Source of the DNA: a bacterium
GTDB taxonomy: Bacteria > Electryoneota > RPQS01
Direction of reading: 5' to 3'
DNA length: 64,000 nucleotides
NCBI GenBank assembly: GCA_036504735.1
Contig: DASXUQ010000017.1
Span: forward strand, 159,349-223,348
The notes below the pieces were generated by a model, which had not been told where the DNA came from, ran no database searches, and saw nothing but the letters and a program-made list of their open reading frames with translations. The translations under genes were made by a program, and so were the position numbers. This document shows, piece by piece, positions 38,979-52,630 of this stretch (position 1 is the stretch's first letter; every line of letters starts with the position of its first letter).

Positions 38979-39629
38979 GCGTTTCTCCTCTTAGCATGAG
39001 CATGAATAGGATGGATGAAGAACAGACAGGATAATATACACTTAGATTTGACTGAGCGCAAGAAGCTCAAAGTTCTAATTCGAGGGGTTTCTTCATAGTA
39101 AAATTATAATTTTATGTTGCTTAGCAGAAAGATTTTTGCCGATTTTGCAAATTTTGATATTGTTGACCCAGAAATCCTCGTATGAGCCAGTGGTAGATGG
39201 GCGTGAGTAAAGAATGCGGACCGCCGAACGGCATGTGTCAACATGGCATATGCAGCTTCCATAATCGAGAGGTTTGCACAATGGAAAGGGATGCCTCGCT
39301 CAATAACGGGAAATCAGCGTGATCATGATGGAACAGAAATGAAATGCGACGCGTCATACGATTGCGATAGATATGGCAAATATTTTTTTATTAATCGGTT
39401 ATGTATTAAAATCAAAAAAAGTGACAAGAATACCAATAAATCGGGATTGTATTGGGCTAGTCAATGCGTGTGGATTTAAGAAAATGATAGATAAATTTAG
39501 CATTGATATGATTAGTTCGATATCGTATATTAGCGCAGCGGATCGGCAAGAAGGATCAGAAAAAAGCTATTTCAATTCTTGTCTATCCAGCCAGTAATTG
39601 TCACGGCTAATAACTTTACGGAGCGTGTC
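38979..39629. other. AT-rich gene-free region
   Basis: These 650 bases are clearly AT-richer than the surroundings, especially 39100-39600. The short open frames have no recognisable character. I see no transposase, tRNA or terminator. It separates the peptidase operon (-) from an AT-richer pair of genes (+) and may be an island edge. Confidence 0.45.
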
Positions 39630-41105
39630 ATGAAAATTCGTCAGAGCGTGTTCGGTATTCTTGTTCTTCTTGCAGTTTCGTCTTTGGCATTCGGCCAACA
39701 ATCCATGGTGTTTGTTTCGTATTTCAGCCAAGATTCCACAGAGGCTCTTGGCTGCGGATGCACACCGGAAACCCGCGTGCCGTTTCCAGACAGTACTCGG
39801 TTATGCGTTGTGTGGGACGTAAATCATGCCACCAATCCTGGACCCGACACTGGGGATTTGTTGCCAATCCGAGGTCAAGGGTATGGTCAGACGAATTTCA
39901 GAACCACGATATTCAATGGCGCCGAGAGCGGGCTGGGAGCAGGCTTCTTCGTATTCGACCCTGCGTTGGTCATCGCCCATCCTGTGGCCGCTGATTCCTC
40001 TTGGTATTATCTCCAGATCTGCGGGTCGAGTTGTTCATGGCATTCGGCCTCGTTTCAAGCTCTTGCCGGTCCAAACGAGATCGAGTTAACTTCTGCCGAC
40101 TGGACATGCGCAGAGACTACTTGCAGTGGTTATTCAGACTATGACTCCACGGAGATTCCGAACAACAATTTTGAACAGGATACTGTCCACACCGTGGCTT
40201 GGGGTGTCCCGCCCGACTTGACGCTTTACCCAAATCCGGCAACTAATCAGTTGACCTTACGTTGGCGCTCTACCTGTGCATCGTCGTATAAAGTCTACTC
40301 GTCTTCGTCGCCTTATGGGTCCTACACGACTTTGATAGGAACTACTTCCGACACCACACTTACTATTACCCAGCCGACAGATGCGAAGCAGTTCTATAGC
40401 GTGGTCTCCTACATGGATTGGGATCAAGTTGGAGTTGACCACAATCGAGGGGTGTCCTTTATGGATAGCCGACTAGTGACAGAGTATGATTCGACCACGT
40501 GGACTGAGGCTGCTGTTTACGATTCTGCGCGCAAATATGCTCTAGATTTTCTGCGAGACAGCACCCACGCAGATCACGAGACGGCACGATTGGCTGTGGC
40601 TGAAATCGTCAATTACCATGATGCTACCCACGAACGGGTCATAGAGGTTATCGACTCATTGGCTACACTCGGAGTGGTATCGTCCAGAGAAGTCCCGTAT
40701 CTATATCGTTTGTTTGAGTTAGTTTTTGAAGATACTGCACTCACGGATGTTGAATTTAATGACAGTCTCAACATCTATGTTGACGATGTAACTGCAGTAT
40801 CTTGGAATGATGGCGAGTTTGTGTGCTTAACGATGGCAAGTGTTGGGTCGCATAGCTGGGATTACCGGAATACGGGTTATCGATTCAATTTCGGAAATAG
40901 TCTTGATAATCATGAGCCCCCCAACTGGCGGTGGCTCGTGGAGCGAGATTTGGTTGGTGCCGGTTTGTGGCTCCTGCGGTATGGCCAAAGCGGCGCGTGG
41001 GTAACTGGCGGCTGGGTTGGTGGCGTTGTCTGGGGGCTTGCCGGGGGCATAATAACCTCGGACGCAGCATGGGTTGAGTGGTCTTTGACGCATAATCATA
41101 TGTAA
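39630..41105 (+). CDS. Secreted protein of unknown function with a fibronectin-like segment
   Basis: The 491-residue protein has a signal peptide (MKIRQSVFGILVLLAVSSL, ending AFGQQ). A Cys-containing region (about 20-190) has GCGCTPETRVPFPDS and ICGSSCSWHS. A fibronectin type III-like segment (about 200-265) follows, with LTLYPNPATNQLTLRW. The middle (about 290-420) is mostly helical and acidic. The end is Gly- and Trp-rich (VTGGWVGGVVWGLAGGIITS) and may enter or cross a membrane. There is no T9SS tail. GGAG lies six bases before the ATG. Codon use is more AT-rich than in most genes here. Family not recognised; the next gene, a small membrane protein, may be its partner. Confidence 0.8.
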   Translation: MKIRQSVFGILVLLAVSSLAFGQQSMVFVSYFSQDSTEALGCGCTPETRVPFPDSTRLCVVWDVNHATNPGPDTGDLLPIRGQGYGQTNFRTTIFNGAESGLGAGFFVFDPALVIAHPVAADSSWYYLQICGSSCSWHSASFQALAGPNEIELTSADWTCAETTCSGYSDYDSTEIPNNNFEQDTVHTVAWGVPPDLTLYPNPATNQLTLRWRSTCASSYKVYSSSSPYGSYTTLIGTTSDTTLTITQPTDAKQFYSVVSYMDWDQVGVDHNRGVSFMDSRLVTEYDSTTWTEAAVYDSARKYALDFLRDSTHADHETARLAVAEIVNYHDATHERVIEVIDSLATLGVVSSREVPYLYRLFELVFEDTALTDVEFNDSLNIYVDDVTAVSWNDGEFVCLTMASVGSHSWDYRNTGYRFNFGNSLDNHEPPNWRWLVERDLVGAGLWLLRYGQSGAWVTGGWVGGVVWGLAGGIITSDAAWVEWSLTHNHM

Positions 41106-41562: not shown

Positions 41563-42003
41563 TACGCCAAGCTTGCGCTGTTATGCAAGCGCCTTATTTG
41601 TTAGTAGTGCGGGCCCAGCTAATTTATGGGGTCGTATCGAGAAGGGTCGGCTGCAAGTTGCCAATACAGCACACAAAGCAACCCCGCGATTTAAAAGGTC
41701 GGCCTACTGGTTGTGGTCACCGACATATAAACTTGACACGCGTCTTAGATTTTAGCAAATTAGAGAGTTGGGTCCAGCTTCGGCTGTGCTCACGTTGCGC
41801 ATGGGCTGCGCAGAGAGATCAAGAAAGCACGAGTATAACAGGCGTAATATCATAAATGTAAAGGTGTTGGCATAATATTTGTTATGATGAAGAGATTGCT
41901 GTAACAGGCTGAACCGTTGCATTAAGCGTTTTAGCCTGATAGGGTGTCAAATGCTCGGGTTACAAGGTACGATGCGGATCATCTGTTGGAAGAGGGATCG
42001 AAT
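41563..42003. other. Gene-free leader before the 42-50 kb gene set
   Basis: I see no gene here. There is a hairpin AAGCTTGCG with CAAGCGCCTT (about 41570-41593), and CAGGCTGAAC can pair with GTTTTAGCCTG (about 41906-41940). The latter lies about 65 bases before the cargo start codon and could be in its mRNA leader. The composition is AT-richer than average. Confidence 0.4.
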
Positions 42004-42864
42004 ATGAAGTCTTTGCACTATGGATTGGTTACTGTTGTTTTGTTAATGATGATGGCTTTGCCGGTCTCGGCTCAATGGACCTCGGAGTGGAGCAGCAGCA
42101 GTCTGCCGAGCGCCGTGGTCAGTGGGTGGCTGCAATTTCAGCAGACGGGCAGCACTTGGGATTACCGGTACTATACTTTGGACACACTGGCGTTTCGCGT
42201 CATGGACGGCTCGCTCTCGGGCACGACGCAGTACACGTACACGTTCAGCGCGGCGGAGCGGTTGGCGGGCGAGTTGGTCTACTCGCTGGGTGAAGATCTG
42301 ACGGGAGACGGTATTGTAGAATTTTACGTGCTGGCGGCCTACGGCACGGCGTCCGCTTACCGGACGACCGCGAAGGTGTTCGACATTACAACGGGCAACA
42401 CGATTTTTTTGCGGGACATCGCGAGCTATTCTTATACGGCAGTGTCCATCTGGGATGCGAATAACGACGGCACGCTGGACGGGGTGTTCACGCGGTACGA
42501 TTATCCGTCGGGAGCGAACTACGCCTATGAAGTGTATAACACGGGTGTCGCGGCGGGAATCAGCGGCCATCCGCAGACGCCGCGGCAGTTCGACCTTCAC
42601 CAGAATTATCCGAATCCTTTTAATCCCTCGACGCGCATCGACTATGAGCTGAACACTCCGGGACGGGTGGAACTGGAGATTATGAACGTGCTGGGACAGA
42701 GAGTGAGAACGGTAGTGGACGAATCGCAGGGGGCGGGGCGGCATTCGACGCTGTGGGACGGCAAGGACGCGAGCGGCAATGCGCAGGCATCGGGCCCATA
42801 TTATTATCAGATTCGCATCGACGGCAAGGCACAGCAGACGCGGCAGATGCTGCTGCTGAAATAA
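42004..42864 (+). CDS. Secreted protein with T9SS type A sorting domain
   Basis: The 286-residue protein has a signal peptide (MKSLHYGLVTVVLLMMMAL, ending VSAQW) and a short beta-rich body (about 25-190) with DLTGDGIVEFYV and DANNDGTLDGVF. Those are Asp/Asn-rich loops like FG-GAP or calcium-binding repeats. The T9SS sorting module (about 195-286) follows: DLHQNYPNPFNPSTRIDY, LGQRVRTVVD, and a FlgD-like WDGKDASGNAQASGPYYYQI ending RQMLLLK. GAGGGA lies six bases upstream. Its stop is only 14 bases before the PqqD-like gene, so it may be the first gene of the modification cassette and, possibly, its exported partner. Confidence 0.9.
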   Translation: MKSLHYGLVTVVLLMMMALPVSAQWTSEWSSSSLPSAVVSGWLQFQQTGSTWDYRYYTLDTLAFRVMDGSLSGTTQYTYTFSAAERLAGELVYSLGEDLTGDGIVEFYVLAAYGTASAYRTTAKVFDITTGNTIFLRDIASYSYTAVSIWDANNDGTLDGVFTRYDYPSGANYAYEVYNTGVAAGISGHPQTPRQFDLHQNYPNPFNPSTRIDYELNTPGRVELEIMNVLGQRVRTVVDESQGAGRHSTLWDGKDASGNAQASGPYYYQIRIDGKAQQTRQMLLLK

Positions 42865-42878
42865 CGGGGACTATCTTT

Positions 42879-43136
42879 GTGAGCACCTGGCAACTTATTC
42901 GCGGCCTGGCTCTGAGCGAGTCCGGCTTTGTTTTCCTGCCGAGCACCGGCGAGACTTTTACGGTCAATGAGCCGGGGCGCACGGTGATTCTGGGTCTGCA
43001 GGACCATAAGACAGTGGCGGAAATTATCGGCAGCATGGCGGAAGGGTACGACGCGGACGCGTTGACGATTCAGCGCGACGTCGAGGACTTTTTGGGCCAG
43101 CTCCGGCAATACCAACTGATGACCGAGGAAGCGTGA
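42879..43136 (+). CDS. PqqD-like peptide chaperone (RiPP recognition element)
   Basis: This small protein has 85 residues. It has the PqqD/RRE pattern: FVFLPSTGETFTVNEPGRTVILGLQDHKTVAEI, then YDADALTIQRDVEDFLGQLRQYQLM, which is the family's winged-helix fold from beta strands to last helix. Such proteins bind the leader part of a peptide and bring it to a modifying enzyme. The start codon is GTG at 42879 with GGGGA eight bases upstream; in-frame codons before it belong to the cargo gene in another frame. Its TGA overlaps the GTG of the ATP-grasp gene, so the two are translationally coupled. The peptide bound is not obvious; see the decarboxylase. Confidence 0.82.
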   Translation: MSTWQLIRGLALSESGFVFLPSTGETFTVNEPGRTVILGLQDHKTVAEIIGSMAEGYDADALTIQRDVEDFLGQLRQYQLMTEEA

Positions 43137-44167
43137 ACATTGCCGTTACCGGCTTAAATGCCACCGACAATCCCGGGCCGGGAATTCCCGTGATCCGCAG
43201 CCTGCGCGAAGCGGACGGCTGCGCCGGCCGCATCATTGGCCTGGCATATGATACTCTGGATCCGGGTCTGTTCATGAATGACATCGTGGATCACGGCTAT
43301 CTTGTGCCGTATCCCTCCAGCGGTTTGGACCCGGTGTTCGACCGGATCAAGGCGATCCATGAGCGCGAGCATCTGGATGTGATCGTGCCGACGCTGGATA
43401 CGGAAATGTATCTGTACTACAAGCTGGCAGACCGGCTGCGCGAGATGGGAATTCACACGTTCCTGCCGTCGACGGAGATGCTGAATCTGCGCGGCAAGGA
43501 TACTCTGGCGGCCTTCTGCACGGAGAATGACATTCTGGCGCCGAAGACGATGATTATCCGTTCGATGCAGGATCTGCATGCGATTCCGCAGCGGCTGGGC
43601 TATCCGGTATTCATCAAGGGAATTTTTTACGGCGCGACCAAGGCCTCGACCTTTGAGGAGGCGCTGACATCCTTCGACAAGTGCCGCCAGCAATGGGGTC
43701 TGCCGATTATCGCGCAGGAAGCATTGCAGGGGCCGGAGTTCAACGTGGCCGCGCTGGGAGACGGCAAGGGCGAAACCGTGGGCGCGGTGGCGATGCGCAA
43801 GACCTATATTACGGACAAGGGCAAGGGGTGGGCGGGAGTCTCCATTTACGATGAGGCTTTGCTGGAGCTGACCCGCACGGTGATCCGCAAGCTGCAATGG
43901 GCCGGCGGATTGGAACTGGAGTTCGTGAAGGATAAGCGCAACGGCGAGTATTATCTGCTGGAGATCAATCCGCGTTTTCCGGCGTGGATTTATCTGGCGA
44001 CGGCGGCGGGGCAGAACCTTCCGGCGGCGTGCGTGGATCTGGCACTGGGCAAGCCTGTTGCCGTGCAGCGCGAGTATGAGGTAGGGAAGCTTTTTGTAAG
44101 GTGCTCCTGGGACCTGATATCGGATATGAAGTACTTCGAACAGTTGACGACTGAAGGAGACGCGTAA
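43133..44167 (+). CDS. ATP-grasp domain ligase
   Basis: The 344-residue protein resembles stand-alone carbamoyl-phosphate-synthase-like ATP-grasp enzymes. It has an N-terminal Rossmann-like region (1-115, with MNIAVTGLNATDNPGPGI), then the ATP-grasp fold with GYPVFIKGIFYGATKAS (ATP lysine), QEALQGPEFNVAALGDG and the metal-binding end LELEFVKDKRNGEYYLLEINPRFP. Such enzymes join a carboxylate to an amine or another nucleophile using ATP through an acyl phosphate. The substrates here cannot be read. The start is GTG, overlapping the TGA of the PqqD-like gene by four bases; the next gene starts on the base after its stop. This tight packing argues that it acts with both neighbours. Confidence 0.88.
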   Translation: MNIAVTGLNATDNPGPGIPVIRSLREADGCAGRIIGLAYDTLDPGLFMNDIVDHGYLVPYPSSGLDPVFDRIKAIHEREHLDVIVPTLDTEMYLYYKLADRLREMGIHTFLPSTEMLNLRGKDTLAAFCTENDILAPKTMIIRSMQDLHAIPQRLGYPVFIKGIFYGATKASTFEEALTSFDKCRQQWGLPIIAQEALQGPEFNVAALGDGKGETVGAVAMRKTYITDKGKGWAGVSIYDEALLELTRTVIRKLQWAGGLELEFVKDKRNGEYYLLEINPRFPAWIYLATAAGQNLPAACVDLALGKPVAVQREYEVGKLFVRCSWDLISDMKYFEQLTTEGDA

Positions 44168-45526
44168 ATGGCCGCAGTGAAGAAACGCTATGAGCGACCG
44201 ACGATCATCAAGCAGTACTCCGGGATGATGAACAAGATCGGCGGCCGGGCATACGGCGCACCGGTGAGCGAGATCGAAGGCGTGCCCGTGAGCGAGCTTG
44301 TCGAGCGCTTCGGCTCTCCGCTGTTTGTGATGTCCGAACGGCTGATCCGCTTCAATCAGAAACGCGCCCACCGGATTTTCCGCACGCGCTATCCCAAGGT
44401 GCAATTTGCCTGGTCCTACAAGACCAACTACCTCGACGCGGTATGCAAGGTGATCCACGGGGAAGGCTCCTGGGCGGAGGTGGTGTCGGAATTCGAATAT
44501 GACAAGGCGCGGCGACTGGGCGTCCCCGGTTCGCAGATTCTGTTCAACGGCCCTCACAAGAGCACCGGCGCGCTGACCAAGGCCATCGACGAAGGGGCTT
44601 ACATTCACATAGACCACCATGACGAGCTGTATGACCTGATCGAGTTGACGGAGAAGATCGGCAAGACGGCGAACGTGGCGGTGCGGGTGAATATGGATAC
44701 GGGCATTTATCCGATGTGGGACCGCTTTGGACTCAACTATGAGAACGGCGAAGCATGGCAGGTGATCTCGCGGATTATGCAGGCGCCAACGCTGCGGCTG
44801 GCGGGATTGCACACGCACATCGGCACGTACATTATGGCGTCCGAGCCGTACCGGATCGCGGCGTCCAAGCTGGCGTGGCTGGCGAAAAACCTGCGGGAGC
44901 AGTATCATCACACGCTGGACTATATTGATATGGGCGGCGGGTTTGCTTCGCACAATACGCTGATCAGCCAGTACCTTCCCGCCGAGGGAGTGGTGCCGAC
45001 GCTGGAGCAGTTTGCCGACGCGATTGCTTCGGGACTGGCCGACTATGCGCCGCCGCCACCCGAGCAGCCGACGCTGTTTTTGGAAACGGGCCGCGCGCTG
45101 ATCGACGACGCCGGATTTCTGGTTACCACGGTACTGGCCAACAAGCGTCTGTCCGATGGACGGCGGGCGGCGATTATCGATGCGGGCGTGAATATTCTGT
45201 TCACCAGTTTCTGGTACAAACACACGGTATCGCCGGAGAAGGATCACGGCGCGGTGTATGAGGATACGGCGCTGTACGGGCCGCTGTGTATGAACATCGA
45301 CATGGTGCGCGAACAGGTGACGCTGCCGCCGCTGCAAAAGGGGGACAAGCTGGTGCTGCACCGCGTGGGAGCGTATGACGTGACGCAGTGGATGCAGTTT
45401 ATTACCTTGCGTCCGAACGTGGTGATGGTGATGGAGAACGGGTCGGTGGAGGTGATCCGCCGCGCGGAAACTCTTGAAGACCTGGTGAGCAAAGAGCAGA
45501 TTCCGGAATCGCTGAGGACGGCCTGA
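44168..45526 (+). CDS. Fold-III PLP-dependent decarboxylase with a leader-like N-terminal extension
   Basis: The 452-residue protein belongs to the diaminopimelate/ornithine decarboxylase group. Visible marks are SYKTN with the PLP Lys 85, HTHIG (215-219), the phosphate-binding DMGGG (255-258), ETGRALIDDAG (306-315) and the catalytic Cys 374 in GPLCMNID, where DapDC has GPxC. Before the enzyme comes an extra stretch (about 4-30), KKRYERPTIIKQYSGMMNKIG. Its YxxPxI spacing resembles leaders recognised by PqqD-type proteins in lasso-peptide pathways. The PqqD-like gene is two genes upstream. Substrate specificity for diaminopimelate is not established. The start directly follows the ATP-grasp stop; GAAGGAG lies nine bases upstream. 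Confidence 0.87.
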   Translation: MAAVKKRYERPTIIKQYSGMMNKIGGRAYGAPVSEIEGVPVSELVERFGSPLFVMSERLIRFNQKRAHRIFRTRYPKVQFAWSYKTNYLDAVCKVIHGEGSWAEVVSEFEYDKARRLGVPGSQILFNGPHKSTGALTKAIDEGAYIHIDHHDELYDLIELTEKIGKTANVAVRVNMDTGIYPMWDRFGLNYENGEAWQVISRIMQAPTLRLAGLHTHIGTYIMASEPYRIAASKLAWLAKNLREQYHHTLDYIDMGGGFASHNTLISQYLPAEGVVPTLEQFADAIASGLADYAPPPPEQPTLFLETGRALIDDAGFLVTTVLANKRLSDGRRAAIIDAGVNILFTSFWYKHTVSPEKDHGAVYEDTALYGPLCMNIDMVREQVTLPPLQKGDKLVLHRVGAYDVTQWMQFITLRPNVVMVMENGSVEVIRRAETLEDLVSKEQIPESLRTA

Positions 45527-45529
45527 GCC

Positions 45530-47746
45530 ATGTTTGCCGCGGACTCCAAGGGCAGACGGTTTGCCGATTCGGTTCTGTTCAGTTATGCGCAGCTTCTGTT
45601 CTCGAACCGCAGATGGTTCGGCGCGGTGCTGCTGGCGGCCACCTTCTTCCATCCGCCGAGCGGCATGCTGGCATTGGCCGGAGTGTGCCTGTCCAATGCC
45701 GTAGCGTACCTGCTGAAATATGATCCGGCGCGGATCCGCAGCGGGTTTTATGGCTTTAATGGAATCCTGCTGGGCGCGGCGTACGGGTATTATTTGAATC
45801 TAACGCCGTTTCTGCTGGCGATCTTCCCGATCTTTATTCTGATCTCGTTTGTAGTGGCGGCGGCACTGGAGAACTATCTGGCAACGGCGTTCAACCTGCC
45901 GGGGCTCAGTCTGCCGTTTGTGCTGACGCTGTTCATTGTCACCATCTTCCTTTGGAATTATGACGCCGCGATATTTCGCACGTCGCCCTTAGAGCAGTTT
46001 GCCGGCGCGGGCGCGCTGCCGGCGCAGGTGCGCGTCTACTTTCATTCGCTGTCGCTGATCCTGTTTCAATCCCATCTGTTGGCGGGAATGCTGGTTGCTC
46101 TGGGGCTGCTGCTGTTCTCGCGGGTGATGTTCGTGCTGTCGGTGGTGGGATTTGCGGCCTGTGCCCTGTTTGTGCAGTTGCTGCTGCCGGAACATACCGA
46201 ATCCTTTGCCGTGCTGGCGGGGTTGAATGCGATTTTGACCGCGATTGCCTTGGGCGGCGCGCTGATTATTCCGTCGCGGAAATCGCTGGCGCTGGCGGTG
46301 CTGGCGGTGCTGATGGTGGTGGTGTTCACCGGCGTGTTTGTGCGCATCACCAATCCGGTACATTTGCCGGTGATGGTGCTGTCTTTCAACCTGGTGGTGC
46401 TGGGGACGCTGTACAGTCTGAAGTTCCGCAGCCATTCCAGCGGGTTGGTGCTGCTGTATTTCCTGCCGGGATCACCCGAAGAGAATTACTACTACCATTC
46501 GACGGTGCGGGCGCGGTTTCATGCTCTGAAATATTTTTTGCCGGATCTGCCGTTTTCCGGCGCGTGGACGGTGTCGCAAGGCTACGACGGTCCGCATACG
46601 CACCGCGGCGACTGGAAGCACGCCCTTGATTTTGTGGTGTGCGGCGAAGACGGAAAGACCTACCAGAACGGCGGCCACAAGCCGGAGGATTATCATTGTT
46701 ACCGGCTGCCGGTGCTGGCGGCGGAGGCCGGGGAAGTGGTGGCGGTGGTGGATGGCATTCCCAATAACCGCATCGGCGAAGTGAATTTGCAGCGGAACTG
46801 GGGCAACACCATCGTGCTGAAGCATATGGAAGGGTTGTTCTCGGCGGTGTCGCACCTGGAGCCGGGATCGCTGCGGGTGTGCATCGGCCAGTGGGTGCCG
46901 CGAGGCGAAACGCTGGCCCTGTGCGGCAGCAGCGGACGCTCGCCGGAACCGCATTTGCATTTCCAGTTTCAGGCGACGGGCAAGGTGGGGGAGAAGACCT
47001 TGCCGTACCCCCTTGGGAGCATCCTCGAAGAGAAGGACGGGCAGTGCCGTCTGAAGGTTTCCGAGCCGCCGGCGGAGATGGCCGTGGTGCAGAACCTGAT
47101 GACGCAGCGGAACCTGAAAGTTGCCTTTACGTTTCCCCTGGACAGCGTGCACCGCTTTCTGTGCCGGTTCGGGGCGGCAGGCGAGCCATTCGAAGAGACA
47201 TGGGAAGTGAAGGTGGACGTTTACAATGTGCCGTATTTTGAGTCGTCCGCGGGCGCATGGCTGAACTTCTTTGCCAACGAGAAGATGTTTTACCTGACGG
47301 ATTTCCGGGGGAACAGACGCTCGGCGCTGTACCATTTTTACTTGTGCGCGATGCAGATGCCGCTGGGGTATTATCCGCGCCTGACGTGGACGGACGTGCT
47401 GCCGCTGTCCAAGGTGCTGCATTCGGCGGTGAAGCCTATCTCGGAACTGTTGCTGCTGGCGGGGCCGCAGATTCGCGCGGAGGTGGAGTTCCACTTTGAA
47501 GAGCCGCAGGCGGGGAACGGCGGAACGCCGGGGATTGTCAGCGAATTACAGGTGCGGGGCAAGGGAGTGTTTGCCGCGTACCGCAAGGCATCGCGCGGGC
47601 GGCTGCATCTGTCGGCCAGCGGCGCGGTGAGTGGTTTTGAATATTCCGAAGGAGAGCGCCCCGTGTTTTCGGCAGAAAGGGTTGCGGAGAGCAGCCCCGC
47701 TGCGGTCACGGCGAGCGTGGATGCGCTATCGTCACTGAAGGCCTGA
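45530..47746 (+). CDS. Urea transporter fused to M23 peptidase
   Basis: The 738-residue protein has two parts. Residues about 20-310 form 10 or so membrane segments with RSGFYGFNGILLGAAYG, the signature of urea transporters (SLC14/UT), and a second half-repeat starting near 220. Residues about 345-490 are an M23 (LytM-like) metallopeptidase domain: HTHRGDWKHALDF, PVLAAEAGEVVAVVDG, SHLEPGS and EPHLHFQF with His 475 and His 477 as likely zinc ligands. Residues 500-738 are a beta-rich domain I do not recognise. UT-M23 fusions occur in other FCB genomes. The peptidase should face the periplasm. It starts three bases after the decarboxylase stop, so it is part of the same operon. Confidence 0.88.
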   Translation: MFAADSKGRRFADSVLFSYAQLLFSNRRWFGAVLLAATFFHPPSGMLALAGVCLSNAVAYLLKYDPARIRSGFYGFNGILLGAAYGYYLNLTPFLLAIFPIFILISFVVAAALENYLATAFNLPGLSLPFVLTLFIVTIFLWNYDAAIFRTSPLEQFAGAGALPAQVRVYFHSLSLILFQSHLLAGMLVALGLLLFSRVMFVLSVVGFAACALFVQLLLPEHTESFAVLAGLNAILTAIALGGALIIPSRKSLALAVLAVLMVVVFTGVFVRITNPVHLPVMVLSFNLVVLGTLYSLKFRSHSSGLVLLYFLPGSPEENYYYHSTVRARFHALKYFLPDLPFSGAWTVSQGYDGPHTHRGDWKHALDFVVCGEDGKTYQNGGHKPEDYHCYRLPVLAAEAGEVVAVVDGIPNNRIGEVNLQRNWGNTIVLKHMEGLFSAVSHLEPGSLRVCIGQWVPRGETLALCGSSGRSPEPHLHFQFQATGKVGEKTLPYPLGSILEEKDGQCRLKVSEPPAEMAVVQNLMTQRNLKVAFTFPLDSVHRFLCRFGAAGEPFEETWEVKVDVYNVPYFESSAGAWLNFFANEKMFYLTDFRGNRRSALYHFYLCAMQMPLGYYPRLTWTDVLPLSKVLHSAVKPISELLLLAGPQIRAEVEFHFEEPQAGNGGTPGIVSELQVRGKGVFAAYRKASRGRLHLSASGAVSGFEYSEGERPVFSAERVAESSPAAVTASVDALSSLKA

Positions 47747-47793: not shown

Positions 47794-48438
47794 ATGAAAC
47801 CATTTCGTCTGGCAAGCGTGATCATACTTTTTGCGTTTCTGCTGCTGGCGGCGGGGCTGGTGCTGCACGCGCAGGATACCAAAGACAGCGTTGTCATCCC
47901 ACATTATAATGCCTCGCTGGCGCAGGAAGCGAACGGCAAGTATGCCGACGCTTTAAAGGAGATGGAAGCGATTCCGACCAACGCACGGAGCGATTACGCC
48001 GTGGTGCTGAGGTTTGGCTGGCTGGAATATATGAATGCGAAGTATGATCTGGCGGAGAAATATTACCGGCAGGCGGTGGCCGCGGCGCCGAAGAGCGTGG
48101 AAGCGCTGCTGGGTCTGACGCTGCCGCTGGCGGCGGTTCAGGATTGGACGCAGGTGGAAGCAACCTATCATAAGGTGCTCGCCCTGGAGCCTGTCAACTA
48201 TACGGCGCATTTGCGGCTGGGACAGATGTACATGAATCGCGGCGACAACAACGCGGCGGCGGCGCATTTTGCGAACGCGCTGGAGCATTATCCGGCGGCG
48301 TATGAGGCGGTGTTGTCATCGGGATGGAATGAATTCAGCCTTGGCAATAAGGACGCGGCGCGGCGGCTGTTCGAACGCGCGCTGATGATGAGTCCGGGAG
48401 ATACCAGCGCGCTGCGCGGACTTTCGGGTCTTAAGTAA
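47794..48438 (+). CDS. Exported TPR-repeat protein
   Basis: The 214-residue protein has an N-terminal hydrophobic signal or anchor (6-26), then about five TPR units (about 38-210), with YADALKEME, YDLAEKYYRQAVAAAPKSVEALLGL and DNNAAAAHFANALEHYP typical. It should work in the periplasm as a scaffold. GAAGGT lies seven bases upstream. It is 47 bases after the transporter/peptidase gene and touches the next gene, an outer-membrane barrel, so the two are coupled; TPR proteins next to such barrels often help assemble surface structures. Confidence 0.85.
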   Translation: MKPFRLASVIILFAFLLLAAGLVLHAQDTKDSVVIPHYNASLAQEANGKYADALKEMEAIPTNARSDYAVVLRFGWLEYMNAKYDLAEKYYRQAVAAAPKSVEALLGLTLPLAAVQDWTQVEATYHKVLALEPVNYTAHLRLGQMYMNRGDNNAAAAHFANALEHYPAAYEAVLSSGWNEFSLGNKDAARRLFERALMMSPGDTSALRGLSGLK

Positions 48439-48439
48439 G

Positions 48440-49312
48440 ATGACCAGAGCGTGTGCGGCGGTTATCCTGTTGGCGCTGACGTGCGGTGTTTCTTATGCCC
48501 GCACGTTTTCCGTTCGTCCCAGCGTGTTCGAAACACACGGCAGCTACACGGACCGGCGGACCTCGGAAGAGCACGCGGGGTATGTGACGGTGGCGATCCA
48601 TGACCGGCATTACCTGACGGCGGGCTACAGCGATTTGACGGTGTCCCATCCCGACTGGTCCTATCATCAGAAGATGCCGGTGGGCGGAGTGCTGCTGAGC
48701 CACTGGCCGTGGCGGATGAAGGCGTACGCGGGGTACATGGCGGGGACGTTCTCCTCGGCGCGGTTTTCCGGGTACGCGGATCACGCCACGGTGGGAAGTG
48801 TGGAGGCGATGTTCTCGCGGCCACTTTACGAGCTGGGCCTTTCCTATGCGCGGTTTTCGGGCAAGGGGCAGAGTTATGCCGTTCTGCCGCCGGGGCAGTC
48901 TTCGAAACTGACTTCGGAGCAGATTACGGGGCGGCTTACGTGCGTGTTGGCTTCGCGGTGGAGCGCCACGGTGCGGCCCAATTTCACACACGTCGAAGAC
49001 GGACGGACGCTGTATTCGCTGGCGGCTAAGGCGGTGTATGTGCCGCGTCGGCGCTGGACGTTTCAGGCGGGCGGGTTCATCGGCGAGCGCGCCTACTATT
49101 TCGACAATGATCTGCTGGTGATCTTCAACCAAAACGATACTCAGCGCGGGATGATCTTCGGCGAAGCGGAAACGCAGGTGTGGAAGAGCTTCTCGGTTAC
49201 GGCGGAGTACATCTACACCCATTTCGATTACAGTCCTGTGGCCGGATTGCCCGGCGGGACCTATTCGATCCGTTATCTGGTGGCCGGTATCAAGAGCCGG
49301 ATTCCGTGGTGA
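48440..49312 (+). CDS. Outer-membrane beta-barrel protein (YaiO-like)
   Basis: The 290-residue protein has a signal peptide (1-20, ending VSYAR) and then amphipathic strands of alternating residues ending in an aromatic C-terminus (LVAGIKSRIPW), typical of outer-membrane barrels. About 14-16 strands can be counted roughly. It resembles YaiO-type barrels found next to TPR proteins, but the match is weak. It starts one base after the TPR stop codon. A role in exporting or anchoring a surface polymer is possible; nothing in the sequence shows it. Confidence 0.75.
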   Translation: MTRACAAVILLALTCGVSYARTFSVRPSVFETHGSYTDRRTSEEHAGYVTVAIHDRHYLTAGYSDLTVSHPDWSYHQKMPVGGVLLSHWPWRMKAYAGYMAGTFSSARFSGYADHATVGSVEAMFSRPLYELGLSYARFSGKGQSYAVLPPGQSSKLTSEQITGRLTCVLASRWSATVRPNFTHVEDGRTLYSLAAKAVYVPRRRWTFQAGGFIGERAYYFDNDLLVIFNQNDTQRGMIFGEAETQVWKSFSVTAEYIYTHFDYSPVAGLPGGTYSIRYLVAGIKSRIPW

Positions 49313-49318
49313 AATTCT

Positions 49319-50020
49319 ATGAGTGAAGCGACCCTTGAAGAGAAATTTCTGACCAGCGTTTTTGGCAAGGCGGTGGGCGAGGACGTGTGCGCGGAAATTT
49401 TGCGACGGGCGGATAAGCAGACGTGGCCGGCCAACTCGATGGTGTTTCAGGAAGGGGACGCCGCGGTGGGGATGTTCTTTGTGGCCAGGGGGCTGATCAA
49501 GCTGGCGCGGATTACACCCGATGGGCGCGAGAGCGTGCTGAGCTTTGTGGAGCCTCCCGGGCTGTTTGCCGAGGCGGCGATATTCCTCGGGAAATACCCG
49601 GCGACGGCGATTGCCCTGGCGGACACGGAACTGCTGCTGCTGCGACGGCGGGATGTGATGGAGCTGATTGGCAAGCATGAGCCCTTTTTGAATTTCCTGT
49701 TTGGCGCGATGGCCAAGTGGTTGCAGCGGCTGGTTTCAAGAATCGATCAGTTGACCTTGAGCGATGGCACGGCGCGGGTCGCACGGTATCTGCTGGCCGA
49801 GCTTGACAAGCAGAAGCCGACACTGGATTTCAAAGTGCCGCGGGTGAATCTTGCCTCCAAGAAGGGAGACCTGGCGACGCTGCTCAACATGAACCAGCCG
49901 TCGCTTTCGCGAATCTTCCGCCGTTTGCAGGATGAAAAGGTGATTGACGTGCAGGGGCGGACGATCTATTTGAACGATCTGGGAGCGCTGAATAAGTTGA
50001 CATTGCCACCGCTTGAATGA
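49319..50020 (+). CDS. Crp/Fnr family transcriptional regulator
   Basis: The 233-residue protein has a cyclic-nucleotide-binding-type beta-roll (about 20-120: FQEGDAAVGMFFVARGLIKL, GLFAEAAIFLGKYPATAIALADTELLLL), a long dimerisation helix (about 125-150) and a winged HTH (about 165-225: KGDLATLLNMNQPSLSRIFRRLQDEKVI). It has no Cys cluster for an Fe-S centre, so it is not a true Fnr oxygen sensor. The PGLFAEAAIF region lacks the exact CRP cAMP-binding residues. It lies just before the quinol NO reductase gene, so it is a likely Dnr/NnrR-like regulator of that operon. Its last codons run into a GAAGGATGAAG repeat. Confidence 0.88.
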   Translation: MSEATLEEKFLTSVFGKAVGEDVCAEILRRADKQTWPANSMVFQEGDAAVGMFFVARGLIKLARITPDGRESVLSFVEPPGLFAEAAIFLGKYPATAIALADTELLLLRRRDVMELIGKHEPFLNFLFGAMAKWLQRLVSRIDQLTLSDGTARVARYLLAELDKQKPTLDFKVPRVNLASKKGDLATLLNMNQPSLSRIFRRLQDEKVIDVQGRTIYLNDLGALNKLTLPPLE

Positions 50021-50052
50021 AGGATGAAGGCGGAAGGATGAAGGATGAAGAG
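50018..50052. repeat. GGATGAAGG short-period repeat
   Basis: About four units of GAAGGATGAAGGCG/GATGAAG begin at the TGA stop of the Crp/Fnr-type gene. This is one of several short-period repeats found at gene ends in this window. Confidence 0.8.
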
Positions 50053-50090
50053 AGGCCGAGATGGGGCCTCCTGATGGGGTGATAATTTGA

Positions 50091-50116
50091 AAGCACGGAG
50101 CACCGTGCTTTTTTAT
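50091..50116 (+). terminator. Terminator after the Crp/Fnr-type regulator
   Basis: AAGCACGG (50091-50098) pairs with CCGTGCTT (50103-50110), followed by a run of T. It separates the 42-50 kb gene set from the NO reductase operon. Confidence 0.88.
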
Positions 50117-50326
50117 TTGCAGTAAATGTTAGTAGTTTAGTCTCTTTGTCGGATTATCCGGTTTTTTATCTTGTGGAAAGAACGGAGGGCTGGGCGGTGA
50201 GTAGATTGGGGTCATGCAAACCAAGACCCCGGTTCACAGCCGTATGTGACCGGAGGAACTAATCGGGCCATATCCGGTGACAAAGTCGTTGCCGGGATAG
50301 TCAAACATATAGCACAGAGAAGTAAG

Positions 50327-52630
50327 ATGAACTTCAAAAAACTCTGGATAGCCTTTGCTGCGGTGACGGTGTTGTCATTTGCGGTGCTGGGCTTCTTCGG
50401 CGTGGAGATCTATCACGAGAAGCCGCCGATACCACAGAAGGTGGTAACCACGGACGGGCAGGTTCTGTTCAGCGGTCAGGATATTCTGGATGGACAGAAT
50501 GTATGGCAGGGCATGGGCGGACAGGAGATGGGCTCGATCTGGGGACACGGGGCCTATTTGGCGCCGGACTGGTCCGCCGACTGGCTGCACCGCGAATTGG
50601 TAAAGATGCTGGATACCTATGGCGTGGCGCTGAACGGTTTGACCTACGATTTGCAATCGCCGGTGGTGCAGGCAACATTGCGTGAACAGTTAAGAGAAGA
50701 ATACCGTAAGAATACTTACAACGCGCAGACGGGCGAACTGGTCCTGTCGCCGGAGCGCGCGGAAGCGATTAAGGAAGTTGGAGATCATTATGCCGGGCTG
50801 TTCGGCAATGATCCGGCCAAAGCGAGCTTACGGGACGCGTATTCCATTCCGGCGAACGTGATGAAGAGCGCCGAGAATCAGCGGTTGATGAACAGCTTTT
50901 TCTTCTGGACGGCGTGGTCCTGCGCGACGCAGCGGCCGGGAAAAGAGATTACCTATACCAACAATTGGCCCTCCGAGCCCTTGATAGGCAACCGTCCCAC
51001 AAGTTCAGCGATTATCTGGTCGGTGATCAGTTTTGTGCTGCTGCTGGGCGGGATTGGCGCGTTGTCGTGGTATTTTGCGGTGCAGGACAGGAAAGGGCCG
51101 GAAGAGATTGCGGAGGCTCCGGCATCCGATCCTCTACTGGCTTTGAATCCAACGCCCTCGATGAAGGCGACTCTGAAATATTTCTGGGTGGTGATGGCGC
51201 TGGCGGTGGTGCAGATTCTGTTGGGGGCGATCACGGCGCACTACGGAGTGGAAGGGCAGGGTTTCTACGGGATTCCGCTGGCAAAATATCTGCCGTACAC
51301 CGTGACACGCACGTGGCATTTGCAGCTTGGCATCTTCTGGATTGCCACGGCATGGCTGGCCACGGGGCTGTTTGTGGCGCCGGCGGTATCGGGGATGGAA
51401 CCGAAATTCCAGCGGTTGGGCGTGAATGTTCTGTTTGTGGCGCTGCTGGTGATTGTGGTGGGCTCGTTGGTCGGGCAGTGGATTTCGGTGGTGAAGGGGA
51501 TGGGCTTCCAGACGAGTTTCTGGTTCGGACATATGGGCTATGAATATGTGGACCTCGGACGGTTCTGGCAAATCTTCCTGTTCGCGGGGCTGTTTATCTG
51601 GCTGTTCCTGATGAACCGCGCGATGTATCCGGCCTTCAAGAAACCGACGGGCAACCGCCACTTGTTGATACTGTTCTTTATTGCTTCGGCGGCGATTGCG
51701 CTGTTCTATGGCGCGGCGCTGATGTGGGGACGGCAGACACATTTGTCGATGGCCGAATACTGGCGCTGGTGGGTGGTACACCTGTGGGTGGAAGGGTTCT
51801 TTGAAGTGTTTGCCACGGTGGTGATCGCCTTCCTGTTTACCCGCATGGGTCTGCTGAAGGAGAGCATTGCGGCAAGTGCGGTGCTGTTCTCGACGGTGAT
51901 TTTTCTTGGCGGCGGAATTATCGGCACCTTCCATCACCTTTATTTCTCGGGGACGCCGACAGCGGTGCTGGCCCTGGGTGCAACGTTCAGCGCGCTTGAG
52001 GTGGTGCCACTGGTGCTGGTGGGATTTGAGGCCTATAAGAATCTGACTCTGAGCCGGATGAAGCCGTGGATTCAGGCGTACCGCTGGCCGATCTACTTTT
52101 TTGTGGCGGTGGCCTTCTGGAATCTGGTGGGCGCCGGACTGTTTGGCTTCCTGATCAATCCTCCCGTGGCGCTCTATTACATGCAGAGTTTGAACACCAC
52201 TCCGGTGCACGGGCACACGGCGCTGTTCGGCGTGTACGGCATGCTGGGATTCGGGTTGATGCTGTTCTGCCTGCGTGGGCTGACGGTGCGCAAGGTGTGG
52301 AAGACCGGAGCATTGTCCTTTGCCTTCTGGTCAATCAATATTGGCCTGCTGCTGATGGTGACGATCAGCATATTGCCGCAGGGCTTGATGCAGACGTGGG
52401 CGAGTGTGGAACACGGCTTGTGGTATGCGCGCTCGGCGGAGTTTCTGCACACCGGATTAATGGACACGCTGCGCTGGCTGCGGGTGATCGGCGATACGAT
52501 CTTTGCGGCGGGTGTGATTTCGCTGGGCTGGTTTGTGCTGGGGCTGAAGACGGGCTGGTCTCTGTCGAAAGAAGACAGTGTGCTGGAACCTATGGCCGAG
52601 AAGGCCAAACTGCGTTCGGGCGTGGCGTAG
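50327..52630 (+). CDS. norZ: Quinol-dependent nitric oxide reductase (qNor)
   Basis: The 767-residue inner-membrane protein reduces two NO to N2O using quinol. It has the N-terminal fused NorC-like extension (about 1-230: GQDILDGQNVWQGMGGQEMGSIWGHGAYLAPDW, then AYSIP) and the NorB part with His ligands in TRTWHLQLGIFW, VVHLWVEGFFEVFATV, GTFHHLYFSGTP and HGHTALFGVYG. These supply the haems and FeB. Glu in WVEGFFE is the expected active-site residue. Length fits qNor. The start at 50327 is preceded by AGAGAAGTAAG. DUF6448 and hemerythrin genes follow closely, forming an NO-stress operon. I see no clear TTGAT-N4-ATCAA site in the 200 bases before it. Confidence 0.95.
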   Translation: MNFKKLWIAFAAVTVLSFAVLGFFGVEIYHEKPPIPQKVVTTDGQVLFSGQDILDGQNVWQGMGGQEMGSIWGHGAYLAPDWSADWLHRELVKMLDTYGVALNGLTYDLQSPVVQATLREQLREEYRKNTYNAQTGELVLSPERAEAIKEVGDHYAGLFGNDPAKASLRDAYSIPANVMKSAENQRLMNSFFFWTAWSCATQRPGKEITYTNNWPSEPLIGNRPTSSAIIWSVISFVLLLGGIGALSWYFAVQDRKGPEEIAEAPASDPLLALNPTPSMKATLKYFWVVMALAVVQILLGAITAHYGVEGQGFYGIPLAKYLPYTVTRTWHLQLGIFWIATAWLATGLFVAPAVSGMEPKFQRLGVNVLFVALLVIVVGSLVGQWISVVKGMGFQTSFWFGHMGYEYVDLGRFWQIFLFAGLFIWLFLMNRAMYPAFKKPTGNRHLLILFFIASAAIALFYGAALMWGRQTHLSMAEYWRWWVVHLWVEGFFEVFATVVIAFLFTRMGLLKESIAASAVLFSTVIFLGGGIIGTFHHLYFSGTPTAVLALGATFSALEVVPLVLVGFEAYKNLTLSRMKPWIQAYRWPIYFFVAVAFWNLVGAGLFGFLINPPVALYYMQSLNTTPVHGHTALFGVYGMLGFGLMLFCLRGLTVRKVWKTGALSFAFWSINIGLLLMVTISILPQGLMQTWASVEHGLWYARSAEFLHTGLMDTLRWLRVIGDTIFAAGVISLGWFVLGLKTGWSLSKEDSVLEPMAEKAKLRSGVA

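Follow-up and report, generated by a model that had tools for sequence, protein, structure and literature searches.

The window analysed here is a 64,000-nucleotide stretch of contig DASXUQ010000017.1 (positions 159,349 to 223,348) from a bacterium of the phylum Electryoneota, and it carries a cassette of four closely packed genes encoding a PqqD-like protein, an ATP-grasp ligase, a pyridoxal phosphate (PLP) decarboxylase, and a fusion of a urea transporter (UT) domain with an M23 peptidase domain. With moderate confidence, we explain the cassette as the core of a conserved biosynthesis-and-export module, in which a discrete PqqD-type RRE (recognition element of ribosomally synthesized and post-translationally modified peptides, RiPPs) would bind an arm borne by the decarboxylase instead of a precursor peptide. 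All four genes are real at their previously assigned positions, the spacings read from the sequence (four-base overlap, zero gap, three-base gap) match exactly, and all four proteins exceed their Pfam gathering scores.

The arm spans roughly residues 1-33 of the decarboxylase; homology to LysA and FslC starts only after it, near residue 35. The motif [Y/W/F]xxPx[L/V/I/F/A], followed by Lys-x-Gly, was present in all of the 85 decarboxylases examined, and Pro11, Lys23, and Gly25 were conserved in 100% of 53 non-redundant sequences (<80% identity); Gly25 is replaced by Ala in one of the 31 arms of a second sample described below. A previous study gave [Y/W]xxPx[L/V/I/F/A] as the motif that discrete lasso RREs recognise in their ligands (PMC13381572). 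The family PF19397 matched nine of 28 arms (best E = 0.0028), which is taken as a hint only because all of these scores lie below gathering. Comparison of the arm profile with the PDB returned no match to a lasso leader, and an NCBIfam search of the arm gave no meaningful match. AlphaFold2 predicted the arm to be disordered and not part of the decarboxylase fold.

A short precursor peptide encoded by a gene of its own was found neither in 12 cassette genomes nor in the upstream regions of 76 loci. A 37-residue query, used as a loose first look, detected no free-standing version of the arm in the 12 genomes, and no conserved small open reading frame was present upstream of the cassette in the 76 loci. 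Because the arm motif matches the RRE ligand, no precursor gene was found, and Asp67 of the PqqD-like protein covaries with the arm aromatic residue (see below), a leader-like sequence appears to have been fused to the decarboxylase itself, in place of a precursor peptide. The sequence-only reading had proposed that the PqqD-like protein presents a peptide leader to an enzyme; the residues of a leader-binding cleft are indeed kept, whereas a separate leader peptide was not found, and it is the decarboxylase that bears the leader-like sequence, at its N-terminus.

The PqqD-like protein scored 48 bits against PF05402 (curated cut-off 23.4), and its best NCBIfam match was lasso_PqqD_Strm, at 36 bits and below cut-off. 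The nearest relatives of the PqqD-like proteins in the PDB are TbiB1 and TfuB1, which are leader-binding RREs of lasso peptide pathways. In the crystal structure of LppB, N33 holds a kinked Pro, D70 forms a hydrogen bond with the leader Tyr, and F74 lies between two pockets (PMC13381572). Judged by spacing (37 and four residues), these correspond to Asn30, Asp67, and Phe71 of the PqqD-like protein. Asn30 is invariant in 108 of 108 cassettes, while residue 71 is Phe in 102, Tyr in four, and Leu in two.

Residue 67 varies together with the arm. Tyr or Trp at arm residue 8 is paired with Asp or Asn at RRE residue 67 in 94 of 94 cases, and arms with Phe, in which the hydroxyl is absent, are paired with Tyr, Ser, or His (14/14). 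This pair of positions ranked first among 1440 arm-by-PqqD pairs (z = 13.8). When the changes were placed on a tree of the ATP-grasp and decarboxylase proteins, four changes were reconstructed, all of them on branches common to both the arm and the RRE position, and none of 200,000 random placements gave a match. It is therefore quite probable, as judged from these sequence patterns, that the PqqD-like RRE grips the YxxPxI motif of the arm as lasso RREs grip their leaders. Lasso-type RRE/leader pairs (TbiB1, TfuB1, LppB, and PbaB1) resemble the cassette in the PqqD fold, the N/D/F spacing, and the [Y/W]xxPx[L/V/I/F/A] ligand motif, but the motif of the cassette sits on an enzyme and not on a short precursor.

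The distribution of the cassette was followed in two samples. A scan of named genomes with a decarboxylase alignment gave 577 relatives, the best 80 of which, mostly from Bacteroidota and Ignavibacteria, were kept; the second sample was chosen by ATP-grasp matches alone, from 395 evenly drawn Bacteroidota genomes (34 positive, 31 loci fetched). The four genes occur in the same order and on the same strand in 74 of the 80 loci, three of the six exceptions being cut by a contig end, and the complete ordered cassette was found in 30 of the 31 ATP-grasp-selected loci. Scattered homologues, which the sequence-only reading had held to be the contrary outcome, are not the rule. UT-M23 and the cassette-type decarboxylase share one distribution among 39 genomes of the window's own phylum, both being confined to the identical six. 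The cassette-type ATP-grasp gene is present in five of these six; the contig of the remaining one, G022, stops within the decarboxylase gene, and the ATP-grasp gene would be expected upstream of that point. The PqqD, ATP-grasp, and decarboxylase genes adjoin in every own-phylum genome where the contig permits, and the UT-M23 gene lies next to this triplet in three genomes and elsewhere in three (loci L008, L009, and L010 of G019, G021, and G023, respectively), so physical linkage is not required. The order kept across phyla and the co-occurrence within the phylum bear out the earlier view that the cassette genes function as one unit.

The limits set to the cassette in that view hold for the four genes but proved too narrow. 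A tetratricopeptide repeat (TPR) protein is encoded downstream of the cassette in 63 of the 80 loci. A predicted outer-membrane protein (OMP) that itself contains TPRs is encoded there in 52 and is the type of non-Ignavibacteria Bacteroidota. Ignavibacteria carry another predicted OMP at the same place and a cargo protein of the type IX secretion system (T9SS) upstream. The window has the Ignavibacteria-type layout: its TPR protein is up to about 45% identical and its T9SS cargo about 37-44% identical to those of Ignavibacteria cassettes, and its OMP is 29-32% identical to the syntenic gene product in eight loci. The TPR and predicted OMP genes usually belong to the module. As had been noted from the sequence, the T9SS-sorted gene stops at 42864, 14 bases ahead of the PqqD-like gene, and the T9SS type A sorting domain of its product scored 30.6 bits against an NCBIfam cut-off of 23.

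The window decarboxylase is 67% identical to its Ignavibacteria counterparts and 42-47% identical to those of its own phylum, suggesting that the cassette was likely acquired horizontally. A concatenated tree also lists the window next to Ignavibacteria and not with its own phylum. Among the plasmid matches listed, none is a plasmid-borne cassette; they resemble LysA, with identities of no more than about 30%, and their alignments cover the decarboxylase only from residue 24, save one two-piece match that starts at residue 12.

Several observations weigh against binding of the arm by the RRE or against the unity of the module. The second-ranked covarying pair, arm residue 22 with RRE residue 67 (z = 12.5), does not correspond to any known contact, and for this reason clade structure and shared ancestry are considered to inflate the covariation scores. 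Two of the four covarying changes depend on nodes with support of 0.89 and 0.90. For an AlphaFold2 job, the PqqD, ATP-grasp, and decarboxylase genes of locus L077, which lie in one frame, were read through their natural stop codons, and a construct without PqqD served as control. Docking of the arm on PqqD was not seen in this read-through fusion (predicted local distance difference test, pLDDT, about 26-46, and the same in the PqqD-free control); the result is weak evidence against docking because the alignments had few rows (25 and 17) and the tethers were short. L159, the exception among the 31 loci, has the arm and the ATP-grasp gene but lacks a PqqD gene in the 1 kb upstream. A cassette-type decarboxylase with an arm is also encoded at L068 (6717-8075), with no PqqD or ATP-grasp gene across 6.7 kb upstream.

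The UT domain of the fusion protein is full-length against PF03253 (158.4 bits, profile positions 2-289 of 292). In the M23 domain (PF01551), H358, D367, H442, H475, and H477 are 100% conserved in 73 sequences; this H, D, H, and HxH set is what we take to be the Zn-binding and catalytic residues of LytM, and the domain looks catalytically intact from its residues. UT proteins have both ends inside. Based on this topology and on a K/R-rich stretch lying right after the last UT transmembrane helix in six of six proteins examined (hydropathy and positive-inside rule), the M23 domain is probably cytoplasmic. The extracellular peptidase envisaged earlier was judged unlikely from the same topology.

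In both the PDB and NCBIfam, the nearest relative of the decarboxylase is the N-citrylornithine decarboxylase FslC/FigC (7kh2, 213 bits; profile, 291 bits), ahead of LysA, and its score against the FslC model NF041039 was 232.6 bits, below the cut-off of 500. FslC/FigC, the best solved relative, shares the C-M motif with the cassette decarboxylase, but a siderophore synthetase is not among the recurrent neighbours of the cassette. Similarity to BtrK is moderate (110 bits). In butirosin biosynthesis, BtrJ is the ATP-grasp ligase. The BtrI/BtrJ/BtrK system, like the cassette, combines an ATP-grasp enzyme with an alanine-racemase-fold decarboxylase. Enzymes of this fold family use amino acids in conjugated form, and BtrK acts on glutamate attached to the 87-residue carrier BtrI (PMC7857480). 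The cassette differs from that system in having no acyl carrier protein; in its place stand a PqqD-type RRE and an arm carried by the enzyme. The catalytic segment of the cassette ATP-grasp protein is E-I-N-P-R, with E277, N279, P280, and R281 kept in at least 97% of 77 sequences. An ATP-grasp enzyme also charges a protein carrier in the LysW/LysX system, where LysW is a separate protein modified at its C-terminus; the ATP-grasp enzyme is common to both systems, but the cassette has no LysW-like protein.

According to the mechanism that we propose, the docked RRE would bring the ATP-grasp ligase to the decarboxylase, and an amino acid would first be ligated and would lose its carboxyl group while in conjugated form, as with BtrJ/BtrK or the citryl-amino-acid decarboxylases; by analogy with these systems, we lean slightly towards this course of events. 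More speculatively, the M23 domain, probably located in the cytoplasm, may trim a small product or set it free, the UT domain would carry this product across the inner membrane, and passage of the outer membrane would fall to the OMP/TPR pair. The acceptor might be Lys23 of the arm, which would make the enzyme its own carrier, a speculative proposal that we put forward tentatively. The complete route that would follow from it, in which Lys23 is charged by the ATP-grasp enzyme, the amino acid is decarboxylated in cis, and the product is freed and exported by M23-UT, is rather doubtful.

The PqqD-arm tether may also serve as a scaffold only, joining ligase and decarboxylase while the substrate diffuses freely and the arm is never modified. 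This possibility deserves to be taken seriously, although we do not consider it the probable one: the YxxP contact is the best-supported interaction, and the nearest solved enzyme, FslC/FigC, uses the free conjugate N-citrylornithine, but the near-invariant K23-x-G25, located 10 residues past the RRE motif in a predicted-disordered segment, is left unexplained. Alternatively, the arm could be a leader and core together, which would be modified and cut off the decarboxylase (by M23, for example) in the manner of a borosin. The presence of a leader-like motif and, after it, a short stretch that is conserved, the invariant M23 residues, and the predicted cytoplasmic side of M23 are all consistent with such a fused-precursor RiPP; it is unlikely in view of the variable stretch after KFG, which leads directly into the folded enzyme and has no clear cleavage motif, and of the yield of only one product per enzyme chain.

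A lasso-like RiPP pathway with true precursors encoded elsewhere, for which the arm would be a decoy or a regulatory mimic, accords with an RRE closest to those of lasso pathways and with the weak PF19397 likeness. It is very unlikely, as the 12 genomes yielded no further copy of the arm and a lasso cyclase is not among the recurrent neighbours; neither lasso cyclase (PF00733) nor leader peptidase was found in the window cassette or, by inspection without an aimed hidden Markov model search, among the recurrent neighbours of the 80 loci.

The cassette decarboxylases have SYKTN in 108 of 108 sequences and C-M-N-I-D in 106 (C-M-Q-I-D in one), whereas LysA structures have C-E at the place of C-M. 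Against the LysA model TIGR01048 (cut-off 297.9 bits), the window decarboxylase scored 218.6 bits and those of 11 other cassette genomes 205-234 bits. The fold and the PLP site are common to both, but the leader-like arm is present only on the cassette enzyme. An ordinary diaminopimelate decarboxylase with chance neighbours, which the sequence-only reading had set against its own proposal, is hardly credible and was rejected on the sub-cut-off score, the CM motif, the conserved operon, and a separate LysA above cut-off in five of the 11 cassette genomes searched, even though the window's own genome has no LysA above the curated cut-off and the cassette decarboxylase is its only good match. Ten genomes of the same family gave no match to the decarboxylase.

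Table. Coordinates of the cassette genes, their functional segments, and the adjoining module genes (positions in the window)
Feature	Position	Strand	Remarks
T9SS-sorted secreted protein (FlgD-Ig / T9SS type A tail), upstream neighbour	41944-42864	+	Syntenic in Ignavibacteria-type module
PqqD-like protein (discrete PqqD-type RRE), 85 aa, GTG start	42879-43136	+	PF05402, 48 bits
PqqD-like binding residues	Asn30 42966-42968; Asp67 43077-43079; Phe71 43089-43091	+	Spacing match to LppB
ATP-grasp ligase, 344 aa	43133-44167	+	ATPgrasp_Ter, 51.7 bits; overlaps PqqD-like gene by 4 bases
Alanine-racemase-fold PLP decarboxylase, 452 aa, conjugate-decarboxylase-like	44168-45526	+	Orn_Arg_deC_N, 96 bits; C-terminal domain, 53.2 bits; 0 gap to ATP-grasp gene
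Decarboxylase N-terminal leader-like arm, residues 1-33	44168-44266	+	Y8-x-x-P11-x-I13 (44189-44206); K23-x-G25 (44234-44242)
UT-M23 fusion, 738 aa	45530-47746	+	UT, 158.4 bits; Peptidase_M23, 48.1 bits; 3-base gap to decarboxylase gene
UT-M23 domains	UT about 45566-46414; M23 about 46547-46984	+	Pfam; C-terminal about 250 aa without family
TPR-repeat protein, predicted exported, extended-module member	47794-48438	+	Matches TPR proteins at 63 of 80 cassette loci
Predicted OMP with signal peptide, no Pfam family	48440-49312	+	Ignavibacteria-type

Candidate regulatory genes were seen ahead of the cassette at other loci. An AraC-type regulator of about 195 aa is encoded directly upstream of PqqD in 14 loci (L054, L057, L059, L062, L074, L080, L081, and others); it has an N-terminal cysteine-containing segment and is possibly metal-sensing. 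In 13 other loci, a histidine-kinase-like/response-regulator-like pair precedes the cassette. Just downstream of the module in the window (49319-52630) are a Crp/Fnr-type regulator and, after it, a nitric oxide reductase of the quinol type (with a NorB cytochrome c-like domain and COX1), with a strong terminator-like hairpin between them (50089-50112). Positions 39579-41105 encode a 508-aa secreted-looking protein without a Pfam match.

No account of this gene set as such was found in the open-access literature, to which the search was confined (subscription journals were outside its scope). What is new in it is a leader that has moved from precursor peptide to enzyme and for whose recognition covariation provides evidence. 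In the RRE-Finder study, about 8,000 matches to the discrete lasso RRE model were reported, and only about 4,000 of them co-occurred with lasso enzymes (PMC7470986). For some of the discrete lasso-type RREs without lasso genes, the module provides a concrete explanation, namely that they would bind a leader built into an enzyme. The cassette is common and probably physiologically important, because it is present in 34 of the 395 evenly drawn Bacteroidota genomes, and it points to an undescribed route by which a small molecule would be made and exported.

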